From: Parashewanella hymeniacidonis
GTDB taxonomy: Bacteria > Pseudomonadota > Gammaproteobacteria > Enterobacterales > Shewanellaceae
Assembly (NCBI RefSeq): GCF_016900895.1
Contig: NZ_JAFEUN010000045.1
Location: 1 to 34,460 of the forward strand
DNA: 34,460 nucleotides
Direction: 5' to 3'
The stretch's first letter is position 1; each line of letters starts with the position of its first letter. Shown here in pieces: positions 1 through 23,427 of the stretch. The position numbers were made by a program, and so were the translations under genes. The notes below the pieces were generated by a model. The model ran no database searches. It saw only the letters and a list, made by a program, of their open reading frames with translations, and was not told the origin of the DNA.

Positions 1-217
1 AATTCTTTGAGGCGCATTAGCGAAGGAATATCGGGATTCTTTCGAGCTAATGTAACAAAGAAGAATTGGCGCTGAAAAGTCCACGCAGTGCGAGTTGCAC
101 AGCTTGTTACTCTTCGTTGCCAGCGCTAACAATAGCTCACTATTGCCGCACACCGTCGCCTTGATTAACAAGTTGTGCATTCTCGCTGAAATCGAGCATC
201 TTCAGGTATCATGGTAT
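1..217 (-). repeat. MITE-like inverted-repeat element, class 1, copy A (cut by window edge)
   Basis: This is a reverse-orientation copy of the element seen complete at 17278-17541 and 20503-20769. The end at 196-217 matches the other copies (gcatcttcaggtatcat, then ggtata), with one G fewer in the terminal repeat. The other end lies outside the window: about 48 bp are missing compared with the full copies. It contains the same internal palindromes, for example the caatag/ctattg hairpin near 130-155. It lies 28 bp beyond the stop codon of the sensor kinase gene. It has no transposase and is not considered coding. Confidence 0.85.
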
Positions 218-245: not shown

Positions 246-3200
246 TTAATTTTCTCGATTTCTTTCGTAATAATTCTTTTGATAATAGGTCATCACAGCT
301 TTTCCTATCTCGGCTCTTAACTCTTGAGAAACGCTGGATTTAGAGATAAAGCCAACCTCCATTTGTTTGGCTAATCGCTCTAATGGCTTTGCTAACGTTG
401 CAGTGACTAAAATTGCCGGAACATATCCAAAGCTGTCCCGAAGAATTTCAATAAGTTCAAGTCCGTTTTCTGGATCATCCAGTTGATAATCCACGAGCAT
501 GATATCAATTTCATCTTTGTACTTTTTCGTATTTATTTTAGCTTCAGCCACAGAGTTCGAAGTAATAATCTTGCACCCCCATTGAGAAAGCAGACTTTGC
601 ATCCCTTGTGTAACTTGCCTTTCATTGTCAATACAGTGAACAGTTACGTCTTTTAAGTTAGCAAATGAACTTTCTCTTTTTTCTTCAGAGATATAACTTA
701 ATGAAAGAGGGACTAATACGCTAAAGTTACAACCTCTATCAGGCTCTGATTTTAAAAACAGTTGATGACCGAGCAGCTCACAAAAACCTTTAGCAATATT
801 AAGCCCTAAGCCTAGCCCTTCAGAACCATTCTTTTGTAGTTGGGTAAACTGCTCAAAAACAATATTTTGTTTTTCAAATGGTATACCCGGACCAGTATCG
901 ATGACTTGGATCTCAATAAAATCACCTTTACGGCGGCAGCCAAGTAGCAATCTTGAGTTTGGCGCATAGCGACAGGCATTACTGATAAAGTTCTGCAATA
1001 TACGCTTCAATAACTTAGGATCTGATTCCGCATAAAGTTCAGTCGGGACGAACTTAAAGAATATATTGGCGTTTTCGCATATGAGTTCGAATTCGTTATA
1101 TAAAGATAAGAATAACTCTTGAAGACTGATATCAGAAATTTGAGGCGTTATGCTGCCAGATTCAATTTGTGAAACTTCGTTCAAATCTTTGATTAAATCA
1201 TTGGCACTACTGATTGATGATTCTATTTGGCGGACTGTCTGCTGTTGGTTTTCTGACAAAGTCCGATCATAAGCCAAAGCTGAAACGAATAATCGTGCGG
1301 CAGAAACTGGCTGCATCAAATCATGGCTACAAGCTTTAAGGTAATTTGTTTTTTGTTTATGAGCAGAATGAATTGCCTGGTTAGCAATAGCTAAATCATG
1401 ATTAGATTTTGACAGTGCCGAGTTCGCACTTTTTAACTCTTCAGTTCGTTGCGAGACTAAAGATTCCAAGTCGAGATTTTTTTCTTTAAGTAGCTTCTCT
1501 GCTTGACGATAAATCGTCACATCAGTAAATGACATAACAAAGCCGCCACCAGGAATTGGATTACCTCTAATTCGTATAATTGTGTCATCAGCAAGAGAGC
1601 GCTCCGTGTTATGTATTGAGCCTTGCTTGATAAAGCTTATGCGTTTTTCTACTTGTTCATTTACTTCTGAAAGAGGAACCTTTCCTTGGTAAATCAGGTT
1701 GTGCCTCATTAATTCAGTAACAGGGCAGCCAATGTATACAAGATCTTCAGGGTAGTTAAATAGATCGAGGTAGGCTTGATTCCAAGCTACGATTTTTAAC
1801 TCTTTATCAATGACCGAAATGCCATCAGTAGCGTTTTCAATTGCACTTTGAAGTACATTTTGACTAAATTTTTGTTGACGGTCTTCCGCATGTTGAACGA
1901 AATAAGCCATCTCAGCGAGATCAATCTGGCGCCCTTCGAATATAGAAGATAGAACCAGTCTTGCAGATGTCGACCCCATGACACTGGCAAGTACCATTTC
2001 AGTATGGTTAATCAATTTATGATAAAGCTCTGTTTTATCAGCTATTTCGTTCTCTAATATTTTAAAATCTATATGTGCTTGTTTGGCTTTTTCGCTACCA
2101 ACAAATTTAGAAATAATAAGCAATAAATCATCAATAGAAATTTTATTGATTCCAGTACCTTTCAGTTGCTTAAATTCACGCTTATCAAAGAAATGCTCAA
2201 GTTGTACTTGTTCCTGAATGCTTTGACGACTGAGATAAGATAACGCAATAACGAACAATAAATTTGCAGCTAAAGATATAAGTGTTGCTAATGTGGTATG
2301 GCTTACTGAAACATCAATGAAAGGGTGCTGATAGAAACCTAAAGTGGGCAGTAAATTGAGTAATAGCCAAAGTCCAAAACCAATAAACATCCCTGAAAAT
2401 ACAGCAGCGAAGTTTGCTTTACGCCAAATAAAAGCAGCAAAAAATGCAGGGCCGATTTGCGCTATAGCACCAAACGCAATTTCTCCTAGGGTTGCCAGTT
2501 TCTCAGGCGGTGAGGTGAAGTACATTAAAAAACTGAGCGTTAAAATCAGTAATACTAAAATCTTGCGTACTACCAAAAAGTTACTTTTGAAGCCTTCAAA
2601 TGAATGTTGTTTAAACTTGTTTCTTTTCAGAATGGTAGGAAAAACAACTTCATTACTCAGCATTGTACTGATAGCAATGGTTGATACCACCACCATGGCA
2701 CTTGCAGCGGAAATTGTGCCAATAAAGCCGACAAGACTCATAAGAGCATGACCATTGAAGGCTGGAAGGAAAAGGACATATGCGTCAGGATCTAGGGCAT
2801 CTGAATATAACAATTTCCCTGCTTGTCCAAGCGGAATTGCAAATAACGCAAACAATAAGATATAGATTGGGAATAACCATCTTGATGTAGAGGTGACATT
2901 GGTGTCTTTTGCTTCAACGATTAAGGTTTGAAATTGTCGAGGTAAACATAAGAATGCTGAGAAAACGATAATAGATAATCCAAACCATGAAAACCACTGT
3001 GACCCAGACATTTGTGTGCTTTGAGGTTGATTGCTCGTTGCTTGCTGCCAGATCTCGATTGGAGAATCGAAAAGATAAAAGCTTACAAATATCCCAATAG
3101 CTAGGAAGGCGAATAGTTTAAGTACAGATTCAAAAGCAATAGCGATCATAATGCCTAAATGACGTTCGGTTACATCAACATTCCTAACACCAAAAAGTAT

Positions 3201-3713
3201 CGTAAAACCGGCCAGTAAACCTGTAACGATTAGCCCTAAAAATTCAGCAGGTAAAATGCTGTCTTGTCTTAAGAGGGTATATGAGTTGACTATCGCCTTA
3301 ATTTGCAAAGCCAAGTATGGAAGCGTACCGATTAAAATTGAAAATGATATTAAAACAGCTAGCTTTTGAGACTTGCCGAAACGATTTGCAAGTAAGTCAG
3401 CTATAGAAGTTGAGTTGAGCTTTAAGCTGACACGAATGACACGTTGAATGAAGTGCCAGCCGAAGATAAAGATGAGAACTGGAACAATATATATGGGTAA
3501 GAAAGAAAAAGCATTATTAGCCGCTTGACCTGAAATGCCTAAAAAGCTCCAAGATGTACAATAAACACCTAATGAAAGGGCGTATATGAATTTTTGCTGG
3601 GTATAAGATATTTTGTGGCGATGCTTATTTCCCCAGATTGCTAGCCCACTTAAGAGAACTGCATAAATAACGCTAACGGTGATTAAAAGCCAATTTGAAA
3701 ACACGGTAAGCAC
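246..3713 (-). CDS. Hybrid sensor histidine kinase with N-terminal sodium/solute symporter (SLC5) domain
   Basis: This 1155-residue membrane signalling protein starts with about 500 residues of PutP/SLC5-type transmembrane helices. A PAS domain follows (about 625-740, PAS_7-like), then a coiled coil (about 745-790). The HisKA domain has the phospho-acceptor His at about 797 in ACSHDLMQP. The HATPase has its N-box near 908-912, DTGPG near 939 and GLGLGL near 966. A receiver domain ends the protein, with the predicted phospho-Asp at about 1075 (MLVDYQL) and the conserved Lys in FISKSS. The layout matches the CrbS/MxtR/NahK group of symporter-fused kinases, in which CrbS controls acetate use in Vibrio cholerae. 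Its receiver suggests a phosphorelay to a separate regulator, which is not in this window. It is divergent from the porin/ABC/ligase cluster and is probably its sensor. The start is GTG, with aagga just upstream. Domain calls are firm; the ligand and target are inferred. Confidence 0.92.
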   Translation of the reverse strand: MLTVFSNWLLITVSVIYAVLLSGLAIWGNKHRHKISYTQQKFIYALSLGVYCTSWSFLGISGQAANNAFSFLPIYIVPVLIFIFGWHFIQRVIRVSLKLNSTSIADLLANRFGKSQKLAVLISFSILIGTLPYLALQIKAIVNSYTLLRQDSILPAEFLGLIVTGLLAGFTILFGVRNVDVTERHLGIMIAIAFESVLKLFAFLAIGIFVSFYLFDSPIEIWQQATSNQPQSTQMSGSQWFSWFGLSIIVFSAFLCLPRQFQTLIVEAKDTNVTSTSRWLFPIYILLFALFAIPLGQAGKLLYSDALDPDAYVLFLPAFNGHALMSLVGFIGTISAASAMVVVSTIAISTMLSNEVVFPTILKRNKFKQHSFEGFKSNFLVVRKILVLLILTLSFLMYFTSPPEKLATLGEIAFGAIAQIGPAFFAAFIWRKANFAAVFSGMFIGFGLWLLLNLLPTLGFYQHPFIDVSVSHTTLATLISLAANLLFVIALSYLSRQSIQEQVQLEHFFDKREFKQLKGTGINKISIDDLLLIISKFVGSEKAKQAHIDFKILENEIADKTELYHKLINHTEMVLASVMGSTSARLVLSSIFEGRQIDLAEMAYFVQHAEDRQQKFSQNVLQSAIENATDGISVIDKELKIVAWNQAYLDLFNYPEDLVYIGCPVTELMRHNLIYQGKVPLSEVNEQVEKRISFIKQGSIHNTERSLADDTIIRIRGNPIPGGGFVMSFTDVTIYRQAEKLLKEKNLDLESLVSQRTEELKSANSALSKSNHDLAIANQAIHSAHKQKTNYLKACSHDLMQPVSAARLFVSALAYDRTLSENQQQTVRQIESSISSANDLIKDLNEVSQIESGSITPQISDISLQELFLSLYNEFELICENANIFFKFVPTELYAESDPKLLKRILQNFISNACRYAPNSRLLLGCRRKGDFIEIQVIDTGPGIPFEKQNIVFEQFTQLQKNGSEGLGLGLNIAKGFCELLGHQLFLKSEPDRGCNFSVLVPLSLSYISEEKRESSFANLKDVTVHCIDNERQVTQGMQSLLSQWGCKIITSNSVAEAKINTKKYKDEIDIMLVDYQLDDPENGLELIEILRDSFGYVPAILVTATLAKPLERLAKQMEVGFISKSSVSQELRAEIGKAVMTYYQKNYYERNREN

Positions 3714-16469: not shown

Positions 16470-17259
16470 ATGTCTGTAAGTGAAGTAAATTTACCACCGT
16501 CCACCGTAGAGAGAGCAACATTTGATTCTAAAAAAGTTGAATCAGCGTTGCCAGTTATAGGCTTTCCAAATAGTCCAAACCATTTCAGGTTAAAATTGCC
16601 TCTCAACAATCCAAAAAACTGATTTTAGTTGGTACAGTCTATCAAAAGTCAGAGGGCGCTGGGATAGGCTTGATGAACGCAGCGGAATTGTCGACCGTTC
16701 TGCTAGAACGGGTAGGAGGCATGTAGATACGGTATCTACAGGGCAACCAGTGAAATTATCAGTGGCTCACAAGTATGATATTAGTTATAGAAGTGCCAAA
16801 GAGTTGGGGATCTCAGAAGACGAAAGACAGGCGTTGTTGCAAAACGGTGAACCTTACCTAGATAAACATAGAACCGTCGATTTATCAGGTGAGAAAGTTG
16901 AGCTAGAATTTAGCGCAAGCAAAAATACTGAACAGCATTCATTTAAAGTTGTTCCAGAAGATAAAATATCTTTTAAAACAACAAGGCTAGGTCAGTTGTG
17001 CGGCAGGAATGAAGTATCAATAAAAGTGATAAAGGAAAGTAAGAATTTGGGAGCTGATACTTTGAATGATAAACCTGTAGAAGTTGATCGTCGGAAAATT
17101 AATGCGGGTATATCCGGTTATGGTAGCTGCAACATCGGCTGGTTTAAGGTGGCGATTTCAGGTGAAAAAATATTGATGCTTACGAGTTCTTCATCTAGAA
17201 CTGATTTTATAAAAAGCTCTTATCAAACTGGAAATACACTAATGGTTGAATTGGCTTAA
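16470..17259 (+). pseudogene. Twice-frameshifted gene of unknown function
   Basis: Three overlapping open segments in three frames read best as one broken gene. The first runs from ATG 16470 and stops at 16622 after 50 residues (MSVSEVNLPPSTVERATFDS at the start). At the A6 run (16613-16618), one extra base would continue into KLILVGTVYQKSEGAGIG and LMNAAELSTVLLERVGG. That frame stops at TAG near 16724. A second single-base shift near 16715-16722 enters the long last segment (VDTVSTGQPVKLSVAHKYDI onward), which ends at 17259. Both lesions are consistent with one-base deletions. The intact product would be about 260 residues. I do not recognise the family. The last 169 codons could still be translated from GTG 16750, but no good ribosome site is seen there. 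Confidence 0.6.
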
Positions 17260-17263
17260 GCTG

Positions 17264-17571
17264 TTCCCGTTATTATATATACCCATCATACCTGAAGATG
17301 CTCGATTTCAGAGAGAATGCACAACTTGTTAATCAAGGCGACGGTGTGCGGCAATAGTGAGCTATTGTTAGCACTGGCAACGAAGAGTAACAAGCTGTGC
17401 AACTCGCACTGCGTGGACTTCTCAGCGCCAATTCTTCTTTGTTACATTAGCTCGAAAGAATCCCGATATTCCTTCGCTAATGCGCCTAAAAGAATTGGCG
17501 CTGAAAAAGTCCTGAAACATGCATCTTCAAGTATGGGTATATCAGCAACTATACTCATTTGATAACGGGAA
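17264..17571. repeat. Palindrome arms flanking MITE copy B (split hairpin)
   Basis: TTCCCGTTAT (17264-17273) and its exact reverse complement ATAACGGGAA (17562-17571) bracket the element at 17278-17541. Without the element the arms would lie about 25 bp apart, with ttat following, resembling a terminator or operator stem. The element thus appears to have inserted in the loop of an older palindrome. Confidence 0.5.
17278..17541 (+). repeat. MITE-like inverted-repeat element, class 1, copy B (complete)
   Basis: This 264-bp element has imperfect terminal inverted repeats: tatacccatcatacc then tgaagatgc on the left, and gcatcttcaa then gtatgggtata on the right. Inside are nested palindromes. Stem 1 is gcacaacttgtta (17319-17331) against taacaagctgtgc (17388-17400), enclosing a CAATAG/CTATTG hairpin. 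Stem 2 is ggacttctcagcgcc (from 17415) against ggcgctgaaaaagtcc (to 17511), enclosing cattagctcgaa/ttcgctaatg. A TA duplication at the ends is plausible. It is almost identical to copy C, so spread was recent. There is no transposase, so any movement needs an enzyme from elsewhere. Confidence 0.88.
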
Positions 17572-17589
17572 TTATGCTATTTGGTTTGG

Positions 17590-20035: not shown

Positions 20036-20234
20036 TAACCTGAACTCGGGATAATGAAATCACTAACGCATTTAAAATGATCAATATTTTGCCATATTGA
20101 TCAACAGTGTCTCTAGTTTTGTTTAGTTCAAGGCATGAGTGTGCAGCAATAGCCAGCTATTGTAAGCACTCAAAACGCAGAAATGAACAGAAATAGAGGT
20201 GCTGGTGAGGTTTGCTTATCCCGAGTTCAGGTTA
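20036..20234 (+). repeat. MITE-like inverted-repeat element, class 2
   Basis: This 199-bp element is bounded by perfect 19-bp terminal inverted repeats, taacctgaactcgggataa (20036-20054) and its reverse complement (20216-20234). Inside are TGATCAATAT/ATATTGATCA (about 20078-20103) and a long hairpin with CAATAG/CTATTG at its tip (about 20136-20171). It has no coding capacity. The ends are unlike those of class 1, but 20128-20177 matches class 1 at 40 of 50 positions without gaps. A target duplication is unclear; at most GT is repeated. Confidence 0.85.
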
Positions 20235-20356: not shown

Positions 20357-21257
20357 ATGATAAAAATATCCATTCCGGCAGCGGTGATTGCTGCAGCATC
20401 TATCGTAAGTCAGACAGCCAATGCAGAGACTATTTTGCATGCTTTTAACTGGGAATACAGTGAAGTTGCAGAGAAAGCCAATGAAATTGCAGAGCTGGGG
20501 TATATACCCATGATACCTGAAGATGCTCGATTTCAGCGAGAATGCACAACTTGTTAATCAAGGCGACAGTGTGCGGCAATAGTGAGCTATTGTTAGCACT
20601 GGCAACGAAGAGTAGCAAGCTGTGCAACTCGCACTGCGTGGACTTCTCAGCGCCAATTCTTCTTTGTTACATTAGCTCGAAAGAATCCCGATATTCCTTC
20701 GCTAATGCGCCTCAAAGAATTGGCGCTGAAAAAGTCCTGAAACATGCATCTTCAAGTATCATGGGTATACAAGTCATCTGGAAATGAATGGTGGGCGAGG
20801 TATCAACCGCAGGACTATCGAATAATTGATAATCCGCTGGGTAATACCGCAGATTTTAAACATATGGTGAAAGCGCTAAAGATGGCTGGTGTTGAAACTT
20901 ATGCCGACATTGTTTTTAACCATATGGCTAATGAAGCACACAAGCGCAATGATTTACATTACCCGGGGACTGAAGTGCTGCAAGGCTACTCAAATGAAGG
21001 TGTTGATGGATTAGTGTTATTTGGCAATATAAATCAGAACCTTTTTCAAAATGCTGATTTTAGACCAGCTCAATGTATTTACAATTACACGAGTGTGTGG
21101 GATGTTCAACATTACCGACTTTGTGGTGCCGATCCTGATGTTGGGCTGCAGGATCTTGATGAAAACGACTGGATGATTTCGCAACAAAAAACGTATTTAA
21201 AAACGCTGAAAGACATTAGTGTCACGGGGTTCCGAGTTGATGCTGCTAAGCACATGA
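20357..21257 (+). pseudogene. Alpha-amylase (GH13) pseudogene, interrupted and 3'-truncated
   Basis: The product would be a secreted GH13 amylase like the intact copy at 22045. It opens MIKISIPAAVIAAASIVSQT and continues ANAETILHAFNW, a signal peptide plus family start. After ELGY (20503) a class 1 element intervenes. Coding resumes in the same frame at 20768 (YKSSGNEWWARYQPQDYRII). Conserved region I is canonical, DIVFNH, and region II is GFRVDAAKH with the nucleophile Asp. Homology ends at KHMT (about 21257), and unrelated sequence follows, so regions III and IV are lost. Compared with the intact copy, eight codons (KKVLVSPA) are also missing at the insertion point. The element brings in-frame stops, so no active enzyme can be made. 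Confidence 0.88.
20503..20769 (+). repeat. MITE-like inverted-repeat element, class 1, copy C (complete, inside amylase)
   Basis: This 267-bp copy has the best-preserved ends of the three: tatacccatgatac on the left and gtatcatgggtata on the right, with tgaagatgc/gcatcttca just inside. It differs from copy B at only a handful of positions. Taking TACCC...GGGTA as the true ends, TA flanks both sides, consistent with a TA target. It interrupts the amylase pseudogene between a Tyr codon and the next Tyr-Lys codons. Confidence 0.9.
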
Positions 21258-21626
21258 CCGGGGGCACTTGGCTCAACAACGTATCACTTTAAAAGTATCG
21301 AAGATTTTGTATTATCAGCTTTCGAGTATAGGTATAAAATGGAGGATGTTGGTAACAATTCTTATTTTGTTGTAATCGAGACCGATATTCAGAGTATCCA
21401 TAATTTTTCTTCTACAGTATTAGTAGACAAACTGGTTGAAGCGTGTGAGCGATATATTCGAAATCAAGTCGTTGATAGACGAGCAGATAGAGAAATTGAG
21501 CTTGCTTTTCATAATGAAGCGATAAGAAACAAACGACTCAGTTCATTACTTGTACACTCATAGCAATGTGAAATTAACCGTATTGAAAGTCTTTATCGAA
21601 TTATAGATTCGAAAACACCAGTTTAA
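21258..21626 (+). pseudogene. Unrecognised gene remnant fused to the broken amylase, with internal TAG
   Basis: An open frame different from the amylase frame begins right at the truncation point (about 21258) and runs to TAG at 21561-21563. It stays open after the TAG to TAA at 21624-21626. The sequence looks like real coding DNA: YHFKSIEDFVLSAFEYRYK, then VVIETDIQSIHNF, KLVEACERYIRNQ and, after the TAG, INRIESLYRIIDSKTPV. It is probably the C-terminal end of an unknown protein, joined to the amylase by a deletion or insertion and then hit by a nonsense change. An ATG at 21339 could start a 74-residue product, but no good ribosome site is evident. I do not recognise the family. Confidence 0.4.
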
Positions 21627-22044: not shown

Positions 22045-23427
22045 ATGCTCAAAAATTACTTCCAAGCCGTTGCCTTAACATTTTCGTTTTTAATCATATC
22101 TTCTGCACATGCCGACGTAATACTTCACGCATTTAATTGGAAATACAGTGAAGTAGCCAATAAAGCAGAAGAAATAGCTCAATTAGGCTATAAGAAAGTG
22201 CTTGTTTCTCCAGCATATAAATCCACGGGTGATCAATGGTGGTCTCTCTATCAGCCACAAGATTATCGGGTGATTGATAACAGGTTAGGCGACACTAACG
22301 ATTTTAAAAATATGGTGAAGGCACTGAAGTCTGTTGGTGTTGAAACTTACGCCGACATCGTTTTCAATGATATGGCAAATGAATCACTTTTACGGTCAGA
22401 TTTAAATTATCCGGGTAACGATGTCTTAAATCAGTATGCGAGTGACCAAACAAAGTATCAATCATTAATATTGTTTGGTGATATCAATCAAAACTTATTT
22501 AGTGAAAACGATTTTTTCCCAGCGCAGTGCATTCACGATTACAATAATGTCGATGACGTTCAACATAATAGAATTTGTGGTACTCCACCTGATACAGGCT
22601 TACCTAAATTGGCTTATAACGACTGGGTTGTGAGTCAACAGCAATCCTATTTAAAAGCATTAAAGGCAATCGGTGTCACTGGTTTTAGAATAGACGCCGC
22701 AAAACATATGACTATCGAACATCTTAATAAAGTCTTTACTCCAAAAATTACAAAAAATATGCATATTTTTGGCGAATTAATCACATCAGGAGGTAAAGAA
22801 TCTATTGAGTACAAGCAATTCTTAGCACCATATTTAGACCGAACCGACTTTAGTGCTTATGATTTTCCACTCTTTAGCCAGATTAGAGAAGCATTCAGCT
22901 ATAATGGCTCGTTGAACTCTCTAGCTGAACCCAAAAATGATGGTCATGCACTTGATAATAGCAGGGCTGTTACATTTGTGATTACTCACGACATTCCAAT
23001 GAATGCTGGATTTCGGTATCAGATTATGAATCCGACCGATGAGACACTTGCTTCGGTCTATGTATTAGGTAGAGATGGTGGTGTGCCGTTAATTTACTCT
23101 GATCATAACGAAAGTCATGATAATGCTCGCTGGCAAGATTTCTATAAACGTAAAGATATAATTGGAATGATTAAATTTCATAATGCAACTCAGGGAACTC
23201 AGATGCATATATTAAGTCATGATGATTGTTCAATTGTATTTAGTCGAGGCAGTAAAGGTGTCCTAGCCATTAACAAATGTGCGCAAGACAAAACGGTGAG
23301 TTTAGATTTTCCATCGAGTGGCTTAAAGAATGGCGGTGTTTATCAGGATATGTTGTCGAGTGATTCGCAACCACTAAATGAATTTGTCATTCATGGGCGT
23401 GATGCGAGGATGTGGTTGTTAAAATAA
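22045..23427 (+). CDS. Secreted alpha-amylase-like GH13 protein with altered region I
   Basis: This full-length 460-residue glycoside hydrolase family 13 protein has a signal peptide ending SSAHA (residue 23). The catalytic nucleophile is Asp217 in GFRIDAAKH (region II), the acid/base Glu244 in IFGELI (region III), and His315-Asp316 lie in FVITHD (region IV). Region I reads DIVFND (104-109), whereas almost all GH13 amylases, and the broken paralogue next door, have DIVFNH. That His normally helps hold sugar at subsite -1, so activity may be changed. There is no extra starch-binding domain. It likely acts outside the cell on alpha-glucans. A gagagga ribosome site precedes the ATG. Upstream lie GATAATTATC (21983-21992) and CTTAGA/TCTAAG (21996-22014), possible regulator sites. 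A strong terminator follows. Confidence 0.88.
   Translation: MLKNYFQAVALTFSFLIISSAHADVILHAFNWKYSEVANKAEEIAQLGYKKVLVSPAYKSTGDQWWSLYQPQDYRVIDNRLGDTNDFKNMVKALKSVGVETYADIVFNDMANESLLRSDLNYPGNDVLNQYASDQTKYQSLILFGDINQNLFSENDFFPAQCIHDYNNVDDVQHNRICGTPPDTGLPKLAYNDWVVSQQQSYLKALKAIGVTGFRIDAAKHMTIEHLNKVFTPKITKNMHIFGELITSGGKESIEYKQFLAPYLDRTDFSAYDFPLFSQIREAFSYNGSLNSLAEPKNDGHALDNSRAVTFVITHDIPMNAGFRYQIMNPTDETLASVYVLGRDGGVPLIYSDHNESHDNARWQDFYKRKDIIGMIKFHNATQGTQMHILSHDDCSIVFSRGSKGVLAINKCAQDKTVSLDFPSSGLKNGGVYQDMLSSDSQPLNEFVIHGRDARMWLLK

Follow-up and report, generated by a model that had tools for sequence, protein, structure and literature searches.

Two short repeat elements in the 34,460-nucleotide stretch of the Parashewanella hymeniacidonis genome analyzed here (hereinafter the window) pose the question of why elements with unrelated ends should have a common middle. 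The class 2 element (20036..20234, plus strand) is 199 bp long, has inverted arms and folds whole into one long hairpin. Class 1 copy C (20503..20769, plus strand; 267 bp) has the ends TATACCC..GGGTATA and lies within an alpha-amylase gene. The initial annotation had proposed that they share a 50-bp core, and on recomputation 20128-20177 (plus strand) and 20558-20607 indeed agree at 40 of 50 positions in an ungapped comparison, the match extending to 20181/20611 with 43 of 54 identical. Its statement that the terminal repeats are unrelated was also borne out (TAACCTGAACTCGGGATAA.. at 20036/20234 versus TATACCCATGATACC.. at 20503/20769). A local alignment between the complete elements reaches a score of 71, and no pair among 1000 pairs of dinucleotide-preserving shuffles exceeds 55. 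While the sharing stands, the proposed extent of the shared unit does not: the 50-bp core is only the inner, apical part of a hairpin domain of about 78 nt, and class 1 further contains a second, inverted domain absent from that account.

In covariance-model searches (models R1 and R2), the class 2 domain occupies 20117..20193 on the plus strand (R2, 75.8 bits, E 9e-21; also matched by R1), a copy included in both training sets. The first domain of copy C lies at 20547..20623 (plus; R2, 68.8 bits), with close relatives in the training sets, and the second at 20649..20726 on the minus strand (R2, 61.8 bits; R1, E 0.002, this match being L039:1647-1724); R1 was untrained on the latter, and R2 was trained on its relative from G001, another genome of the same genus. 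Class 1 copy A (17278..17541, plus), with 98% identity to copy C, contains domains at 17322..17398 (plus; R2, 68.9 bits) and, inverted, at 17424..17501 (minus; R2, 61.3 bits). A fourth element, a reverse class 1 copy cut by the contig start, retains one domain at 99..175 (minus; R2, 66.8 bits) and a second at 1..73 (plus; R2, 47.8 bits) that lacks its 5′ end.

Locus comparison with G001 shows that class 1 is absent there from the sites of both copy A and copy C, with about 27 bp of the copy C target missing in the window. Copy A was inserted within a CCCGTTAT..ATAACGGG inverted repeat, separating its arms (17240-17300 and 17520-17580), a terminator-like spot that is unbroken in G001. At the class 2 site, G001 has another element of about 265 bp (L466, about 3119-3383) with GAGACCGTTCTTAATGA ends and two inverted domains (47.0 and 39.0 bits); two insertions thus took place at one intergenic position, of elements that differ in their ends but have the same kind of middle. 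The alpha-amylase gene broken by copy C (20380-21292) adjoins a second amylase gene (22045-23427), and just downstream, at about 21258-21265, the window lacks about 3.6 kb that is present in G001 (C37:49768-53417), which suggests decay of the amylase locus in the window genome.

In the window genome (G000; 4.8 Mb in 307 contigs), a pattern for the core occurs 119 times with up to three mismatches, as against none for the reversed control. With up to two mismatches, there are 117 occurrences in G000, 11 in G001 and one each in two of 142 other genomes (G098 and G134), which were set aside as chance. Of 82 readable distinct contexts, three (L001, L002, L004) resemble class 2, and almost all of the rest resemble class 1. 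The 40 scored class 1 copies, full-length or nearly so, are 97-100% identical to copy C, indicating that class 1 spread recently. Bacterial MITEs are described, in the accessible parts of the sources, as short elements with terminal inverted repeats, target duplications, many copies and predicted stem-loop transcripts (PMC10969869, PMC2229807). Classes 2 and 1 are such MITEs, being short (199 and 267 bp, with 24-nt arms that are 92 and 96% complementary), multi-copy and non-autonomous. Many class 2 copies are flanked by target duplications of 6-7 bp (TATTTA, TAAGATA, TAAACTA, TAGTTA, TACTTA), others only by TA or by imperfect repeats, as is the window copy, which, taken as ACC..GGT, has the flanks TAGTTA and TAGTGA. 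For class 1, a repeat of at least 2 bp (TA) is seen at the TA|TACCC border in 65 of 71 rows, which is only consistent with TA duplication, since the TATACCC..GGGTATA ends themselves supply the TA. No plasmid copies of either element were found by blastn.

Cutting out class 2 by its ends gives 25 distinct intervals, of which two are longer composites and seven are shortened to 90-180 bp (180, 151, 145, 140, 108, 105 and 90 bp). Three of the shortened copies keep exact duplications (180 bp, TAAGATA; 151 bp, TATTTA; 145 bp, TACTTA), and thus an intact module is not needed for the element to persist, nor perhaps to insert. We considered from these short copies whether the core itself is a mobile insert; their differing lengths make ordinary deletions likelier. 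At two further loci (L129 and L150), class 1 copies end right after the apical hairpin and are followed by unrelated DNA, as if breaks had occurred at the hairpin, and at another (L029; G000:C31:4465-4609), two class 1 core hairpins lie in tandem 114 bp apart, for which a simple end search gave no left or right ends.

The domain consists of an outer stem, an internal loop with the strands CAAGGC and AACGCAGA, an inner stem and an apical AATAG-loop-CTATT hairpin. Whole-element folding renders class 1 as two such arms on a stem of paired ends. Class 2 relatives from G000-G003 have like ends and differing apical stems (GAGTG..CACTC, GTTTCAG..CTGAAAC, GTAATTT..AATTAC, AGAACAG..CTGTTCT, GCAATTT..AAATTGC). 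Across seven stretches, the fold z-scores are -8.3, -9.4, -1.9 and -1.7 for class 2 relatives, -3.3 for the window class 2 element and -5.4 and -2.1 for class 1. In alignment A1, with 21 sequences drawn from the two classes, both sides have changed at 12 of 21 pairs, giving a covariation score of 0.399 against a shuffle mean of 0.165, with none of 500 shuffles as high and slid registers at or below 0.135; at pair 22-57, AU, CG, GC and UA are all present. The signal recurs in A2 (103 distinct rows fitted with the covariance model), with 20 of 21 pairs changed on both sides and a score of 0.760 versus 0.220, and in A4 (62 of 72 representatives, a diverse set aligned with MAFFT), with 22 of 23 pairs and 0.825 versus 0.209 when shuffled and at most 0.245 when slid.

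A sample chosen without selection on pairing comes from a loop-only pattern that fixes AAGGC, AATAG, CTATT and AACGCAGA (23 fixed bases). By our own estimate, about 0.02 matches to it would be expected by chance in 257 billion bases; at least 115 stretches matched, yielding 124 matches, of which 98 are distinct and 30 divergent. The 7-bp inner stem of these 30 has Watson-Crick pairs in 170 of 210 cells (81%), as compared to 27-37% in slid registers and 31% (maximum 41% of 200 trials) when the arms are dealt among the matches. The outer stem, taken in the best of 20 registers, is Watson-Crick paired in 304 of 390 cells over 39 representatives, the same search with arms dealt out giving 51% (maximum 55%). 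One fold with covarying stems is therefore common to many element families, and changes in the stem are compensated, both in the alignments and in the loop-only matches, as the initial annotation had anticipated for a selected structure.

Compensation in itself has a neutral explanation: template switching produces compensatory changes, and in elements that are imperfect palindromes, switching between the arms could make compensated stems, the core then being common by descent or recombination only. The truncated copies (L129, L150) would fit such a process. It would also fit the 15 class 2 rows excised on the basis of their ends within one genus, in which the loop is barely better kept than the outer stem (majority letter 0.77 versus 0.76, with the inner stem at 0.62), so that at genus level a clearly greater freedom is seen in the inner stem alone. 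Template switching should, however, pair the internal loop too, and it is the non-complementary loop strands that recur across ends and phyla. In 36 divergent domains found by the model outside the pattern collection, the majority letter reaches 0.84 in the loop against 0.42 in the two outer stems, and in 28 domains without training rows 0.85 against 0.45, figures that are inflated because the model favors the loop letters. A fairer test across taxa is offered by two-domain elements, where the partner copy is not what the search selected. Among elements with a B/C, D or G end type (defined below) in the upstream 75 nt, some of them truncated, AGGC and AAC stand with correct spacing at the unsearched mirror position in 23 of 35; a shifted position gives 1 of 35, and the opposite strand 4 of 35. 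CAAGGC and AACGCAGA hence recur with the module, unselected partner copies included. A strand-symmetric process such as template switching would further not be expected to leave more G-U than A-C mismatches (see below), and we consider it an improbable account. A fold common across families, covarying stems and recurring loop strands are the grounds on which we hold, with high confidence, that the shared module is under selection, in agreement with the initial suggestion that the middle itself is selected.

The initial annotation left it to be seen whether the core occurs outside the two families. R1 finds the domain in 132 of 293 relatives (own genome included) and 17 of 69 genera, and R2, run on 398 sampled genomes of the phylum, finds it in 114, or 80 of 338 good ones, and in 54 of 213 genera. 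Among the 80 listed of the at least 115 loop-only matches, Pseudoalteromonas, Colwellia, Microbulbifer, Acinetobacter guillouiae, Agitococcus, Methylophaga and other Gammaproteobacteria are joined by Nitrosomonas, a Pelagimonas MAG and Gemmatimonadota/Longimicrobiales MAGs, a range covering Gamma-, Beta- and Alphaproteobacteria and Gemmatimonadota. The MAG matches could still reflect binning errors, but one of the Longimicrobiales records is a 4.47-Mb chromosome-level MAG with many domain copies. A class 2 element is also present in Shewanella sp. OPT22 (NZ_PGVH01000001.1).

Listing the end types from the covariance-model searches of related genomes, as had been proposed, shows that the module sits between several unrelated kinds of ends (at least seven by eye) in Pseudomonadota and Gemmatimonadota MAGs. 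The end search covered 202 of 214 domain groups, of which 183 gave arms, some plainly spurious, and the classes were named by eye. Single domains characterize end type A (class 2; TAACCTSARCTCGGGATAA, about 199 bp), type E (GGARSCTCTGATTRA, about 160 bp) and type F (CTAGTGGKCC, about 165-171 bp). Two domains are found in type B (class 1; TATACCC, about 262-270 bp, inverted in the intact ones), type C (ATACCAAT, sized as B), type D (CTAGGGYCTGTTGAC, about 270 bp) and type G (AGAGCRCCATATAGTTTA, 268 bp). Type I (GCAGTCCGTGGACA, 171-249 bp) comes from Gemmatimonadota and is partly tandem, as seen in three MAG loci (L361 7149-7893, L285 and L290), with a period of 249 bp in L361. Singleton ends also occur, for example CTAGTGCTCTATCAATATGA in Nitrosomonas. 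Most domain-bearing elements measure 160-270 bp, and where two inverted domains lie within 140 bp, their starts are 102-107 bp apart in 20 of 20 cases. Pairwise comparison of eight end consensuses reveals no convincing relation, the lowest chance values in 28 pairs being 0.02 for C/I and 0.09-0.11 for three others; B and C, both starting with TATACC, are counted as one kind in the figure of seven.

No autonomous partner of class 1 or 2 was found. The class 2 ends (ACCTGA) and 6-7-bp duplications fit the description of IS982-derived MITEs, for which AC ends and direct repeats of variable length are given in the accessible text (PMC7335449). A role of IS982 as the mover gained no support from a partner with these ends: in the loci surrounding ten PF13612 places in G001-G004, the class 2 end occurs nowhere with up to five mismatches, and likewise no class 1 end was seen near these places with up to six. 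One of the ten (L204 of G003) is an 858-bp insertion sequence of IS5 type (1402-2259; NF033580, 276.9 bits), whose CTAGGGGCTGTTGATCTTT ends agree at 16 of 19 letters with type D of the domain-bearing mini-elements (for example, in Agitococcus). Unlike the latter, it has no R1 match inside among the G003 matches listed. Type E copies have, in several cases, 4-bp CTAA duplications, which we take to be IS5-like, whereas other end types show TA borders or 6-7-bp duplications, which sets them apart from IS5 derivatives. A scan of the examined loci for longer elements with any of the eight end types (the same end type twice, 0.7-2.6 kb apart, around an ORF of more than 200 codons) returned two, namely the IS5-type element and the L361 tandem of mini-elements.

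Three roles had been suggested initially for the shared middle: a structured RNA, a protein-binding cruciform, or a shared recognition site for a mobilizing enzyme. The last of these is disfavored because the classes differ in ends and target duplications, and the choice among the others turns on the mismatches within the stems. A symmetric process on DNA would equalize G-T and A-C mismatches once base content is corrected for. In the outer and inner stems of the class 2 rows of A1, we count 29 GT and 6 AC. The outer stem of the loop-pattern sample (39 representatives) has 40 GT and 6 AC (p 0.003 against an arms-shuffled GT share of 0.67 in 35 representatives), and its inner stem alone 16 GT and 8 AC (p 0.15). 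In A5, a set of 75 divergent representatives selected by the covariance model, there are 83 GU and 15 AC (p 4e-8, the shuffled share being 0.59). Given this excess, the fold is probably that of one strand by itself, RNA or ssDNA, and it is likely that the module acts as a single strand, the best-fitting of the suggested roles.

The same asymmetry weighs against a role in duplex DNA, in which the palindrome would extrude as a cruciform or a host protein would bind the duplex. Long palindromes can extrude and the class 1 architecture is symmetric, but the nearly free stem sequence would leave a duplex reader little to see beyond the loop strands, and the prevalence of G-U over A-C mismatches speaks against a fold that is the same on both strands, such as a cruciform; we regard this reading as very unlikely. 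Between the single-stranded forms, the hairpins of IS200/IS605 and attC sites, which act as folded ssDNA in transposition or excision, provide the model for a domain folding on a replication or repair intermediate and aiding the movement of the element. The strand-specific fold would suit this, as would the inverted pair, which presents one sense copy per DNA strand, with class 1 folding as two arms on its paired-end stem. Against it stand the absence of an overall replication-strand bias, with counts of 68 versus 63 (12 of 16 genomes among the matches listed, with the origin assumed at base 1 and matches less than 140 bp apart dropped; individual genomes differ, examples being 17:6 and 4:13), and the several end kinds and target duplications, which make one common transposition enzyme unlikely. 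An ssDNA function is accordingly a possibility that we rate as rather doubtful.

We hold RNA to be likelier than ssDNA because of the one-strand G-U folding, the precedent of ERIC (see below) and the inverted copies, which would offer a sense copy in either direction, a preference that stands at about even confidence. Orientation to genes was assessed for 134 elements with simple ORF calls, single-domain elements being those with no second domain located within 140 bp. Relative to the gene upstream, these are oriented alike in 66 cases and oppositely in 54 (p 0.32), no clear bias; relative to the gene downstream, the counts are 50 and 73 (p 0.047), a weak bias. This lack of a clear orientation to genes and the 7 of 25 shortened class 2 intervals count against an RNA-level role.

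Among known repeats, ERIC is the closest relative of these elements, not a tested member. It shares the TATACCC..GGGTATA ends with class 1, which class 2 lacks, and like the domain-bearing elements it forms a long imperfect hairpin. In the consensus, the same internal loop with one G-C pair (AAGGC / AACGCA) can be discerned, as a motif match only, in the consensus as given in the accessible text (PMC2759123); this motif with a closing stem arises in 10 of 20000 shuffles of the ERIC consensus. The architectures differ, ERIC having one long arm in 127 bp as against two inverted domains in about 267 bp for class 1, and 199 bp for class 2. One could regard both classes as mere ERIC family members and nothing new, for which the class 1 ends, the shared loop and the shuffle result speak. 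However, a search of G000 with the ERIC consensus gives no match at E<=0.001, and R2, when run over 30 ERIC-like loci, left ERIC unscored, its sole match (L417) being at a neighboring class-1-type element. Further, while AGGC and AAC are among the best-kept letters in these 30 loci, the A before AGGC, the first of AAGGC, varies, and class 2 and end types D, E, F, G and I have other ends. Simple ERIC membership is therefore highly improbable. ERIC nevertheless offers a functional lead by analogy, as ERIC hairpins in Yersinia transcripts are described as changing mRNA decay in the parts of these reports available (PMC2229807, PMC10969869).

Other known systems offer further comparisons. REP/RAYT palindromes, another class of repeats (PMC3733652, PMC2817692), are characterized by a GTAG or CGTC tag and a RAYT transposase. 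In searches of Rfam release 15, the domain has no match at or above threshold in the window, in 8 loci (E<=5) or in 13 loci (E<=1). At one locus (L442 1318-1480, genome G455), a cobalamin riboswitch above threshold (40.1 bits) adjoins a two-domain element, whose domains are overlapped by a sub-threshold match to the same family (19.4 bits, threshold 31.5); the other matches lie elsewhere. In eukaryotes, CORE-SINEs have a conserved middle common to elements with different heads and tails. These are, however, retroelements copied via RNA, whereas the elements studied here are DNA, have inverted ends and contain a hairpin that covaries. The accessible parts of general accounts of MITEs describe no structured core common to MITEs with unrelated ends (PMC10969869, PMC2229807), and the open literature, as far as its accessible text extends, gave no account of a covarying core with unrelated ends (including PMC2759123, PMC2229807, PMC2267715, PMC7335449, PMC5896051, PMC10969869 and PMC4853749). 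The initial remark that such modular sharing lacked a description agrees with this within the open literature. MITEs and ERIC are thus already known, and the structured core common to MITEs with unrelated ends is what we found without description in those sources.

Taken together, we favor as the likely explanation that these are MITEs with a common, structured and selected module, which acts as a single strand and is kept for the survival of the element. Under this proposal, different transposases would move the elements by their ends, the module being indifferent to which. The module itself would work as a folded single strand, most likely read-through RNA and possibly ssDNA. A two-stranded loop that is conserved while its stems change in concert is what one typically sees where a folded strand is recognized, and the internal loop may be bound by a widely conserved host factor, with our confidence in any particular factor being low. 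Two inverted copies would ensure one sense copy per transcript direction, or per exposed DNA strand. The module would be retained for raising the survival of the element, by lowering the cost of insertion or improving its spread, whichever transposase is at work. More tentatively, and at somewhat less than even odds in our judgment, it might represent a transferable, SINE-like module that folds as RNA or ssDNA and that mini-transposons from many unrelated transposase groups share in both Pseudomonadota and Gemmatimonadota, with the AAGGC / AACGCAGA loop bound by an ancient host factor and ERIC as an extended relative. In that case, bacterial DNA transposons would be using a parasitic strategy at the RNA level, overlooked so far because the stems are free in sequence.

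Bacterial MITEs are usually taken to be worn-out insertion sequences with unremarkable middles. A fold kept across phyla and unrelated ends suggests that something cellular reads the middle. This makes it possible to test why such repeats build up to 100 or more copies. It also connects ERIC, a tool of PCR typing for decades, with a far broader range of elements, and the covariance model can be used to annotate these repeats in many proteobacterial genomes.
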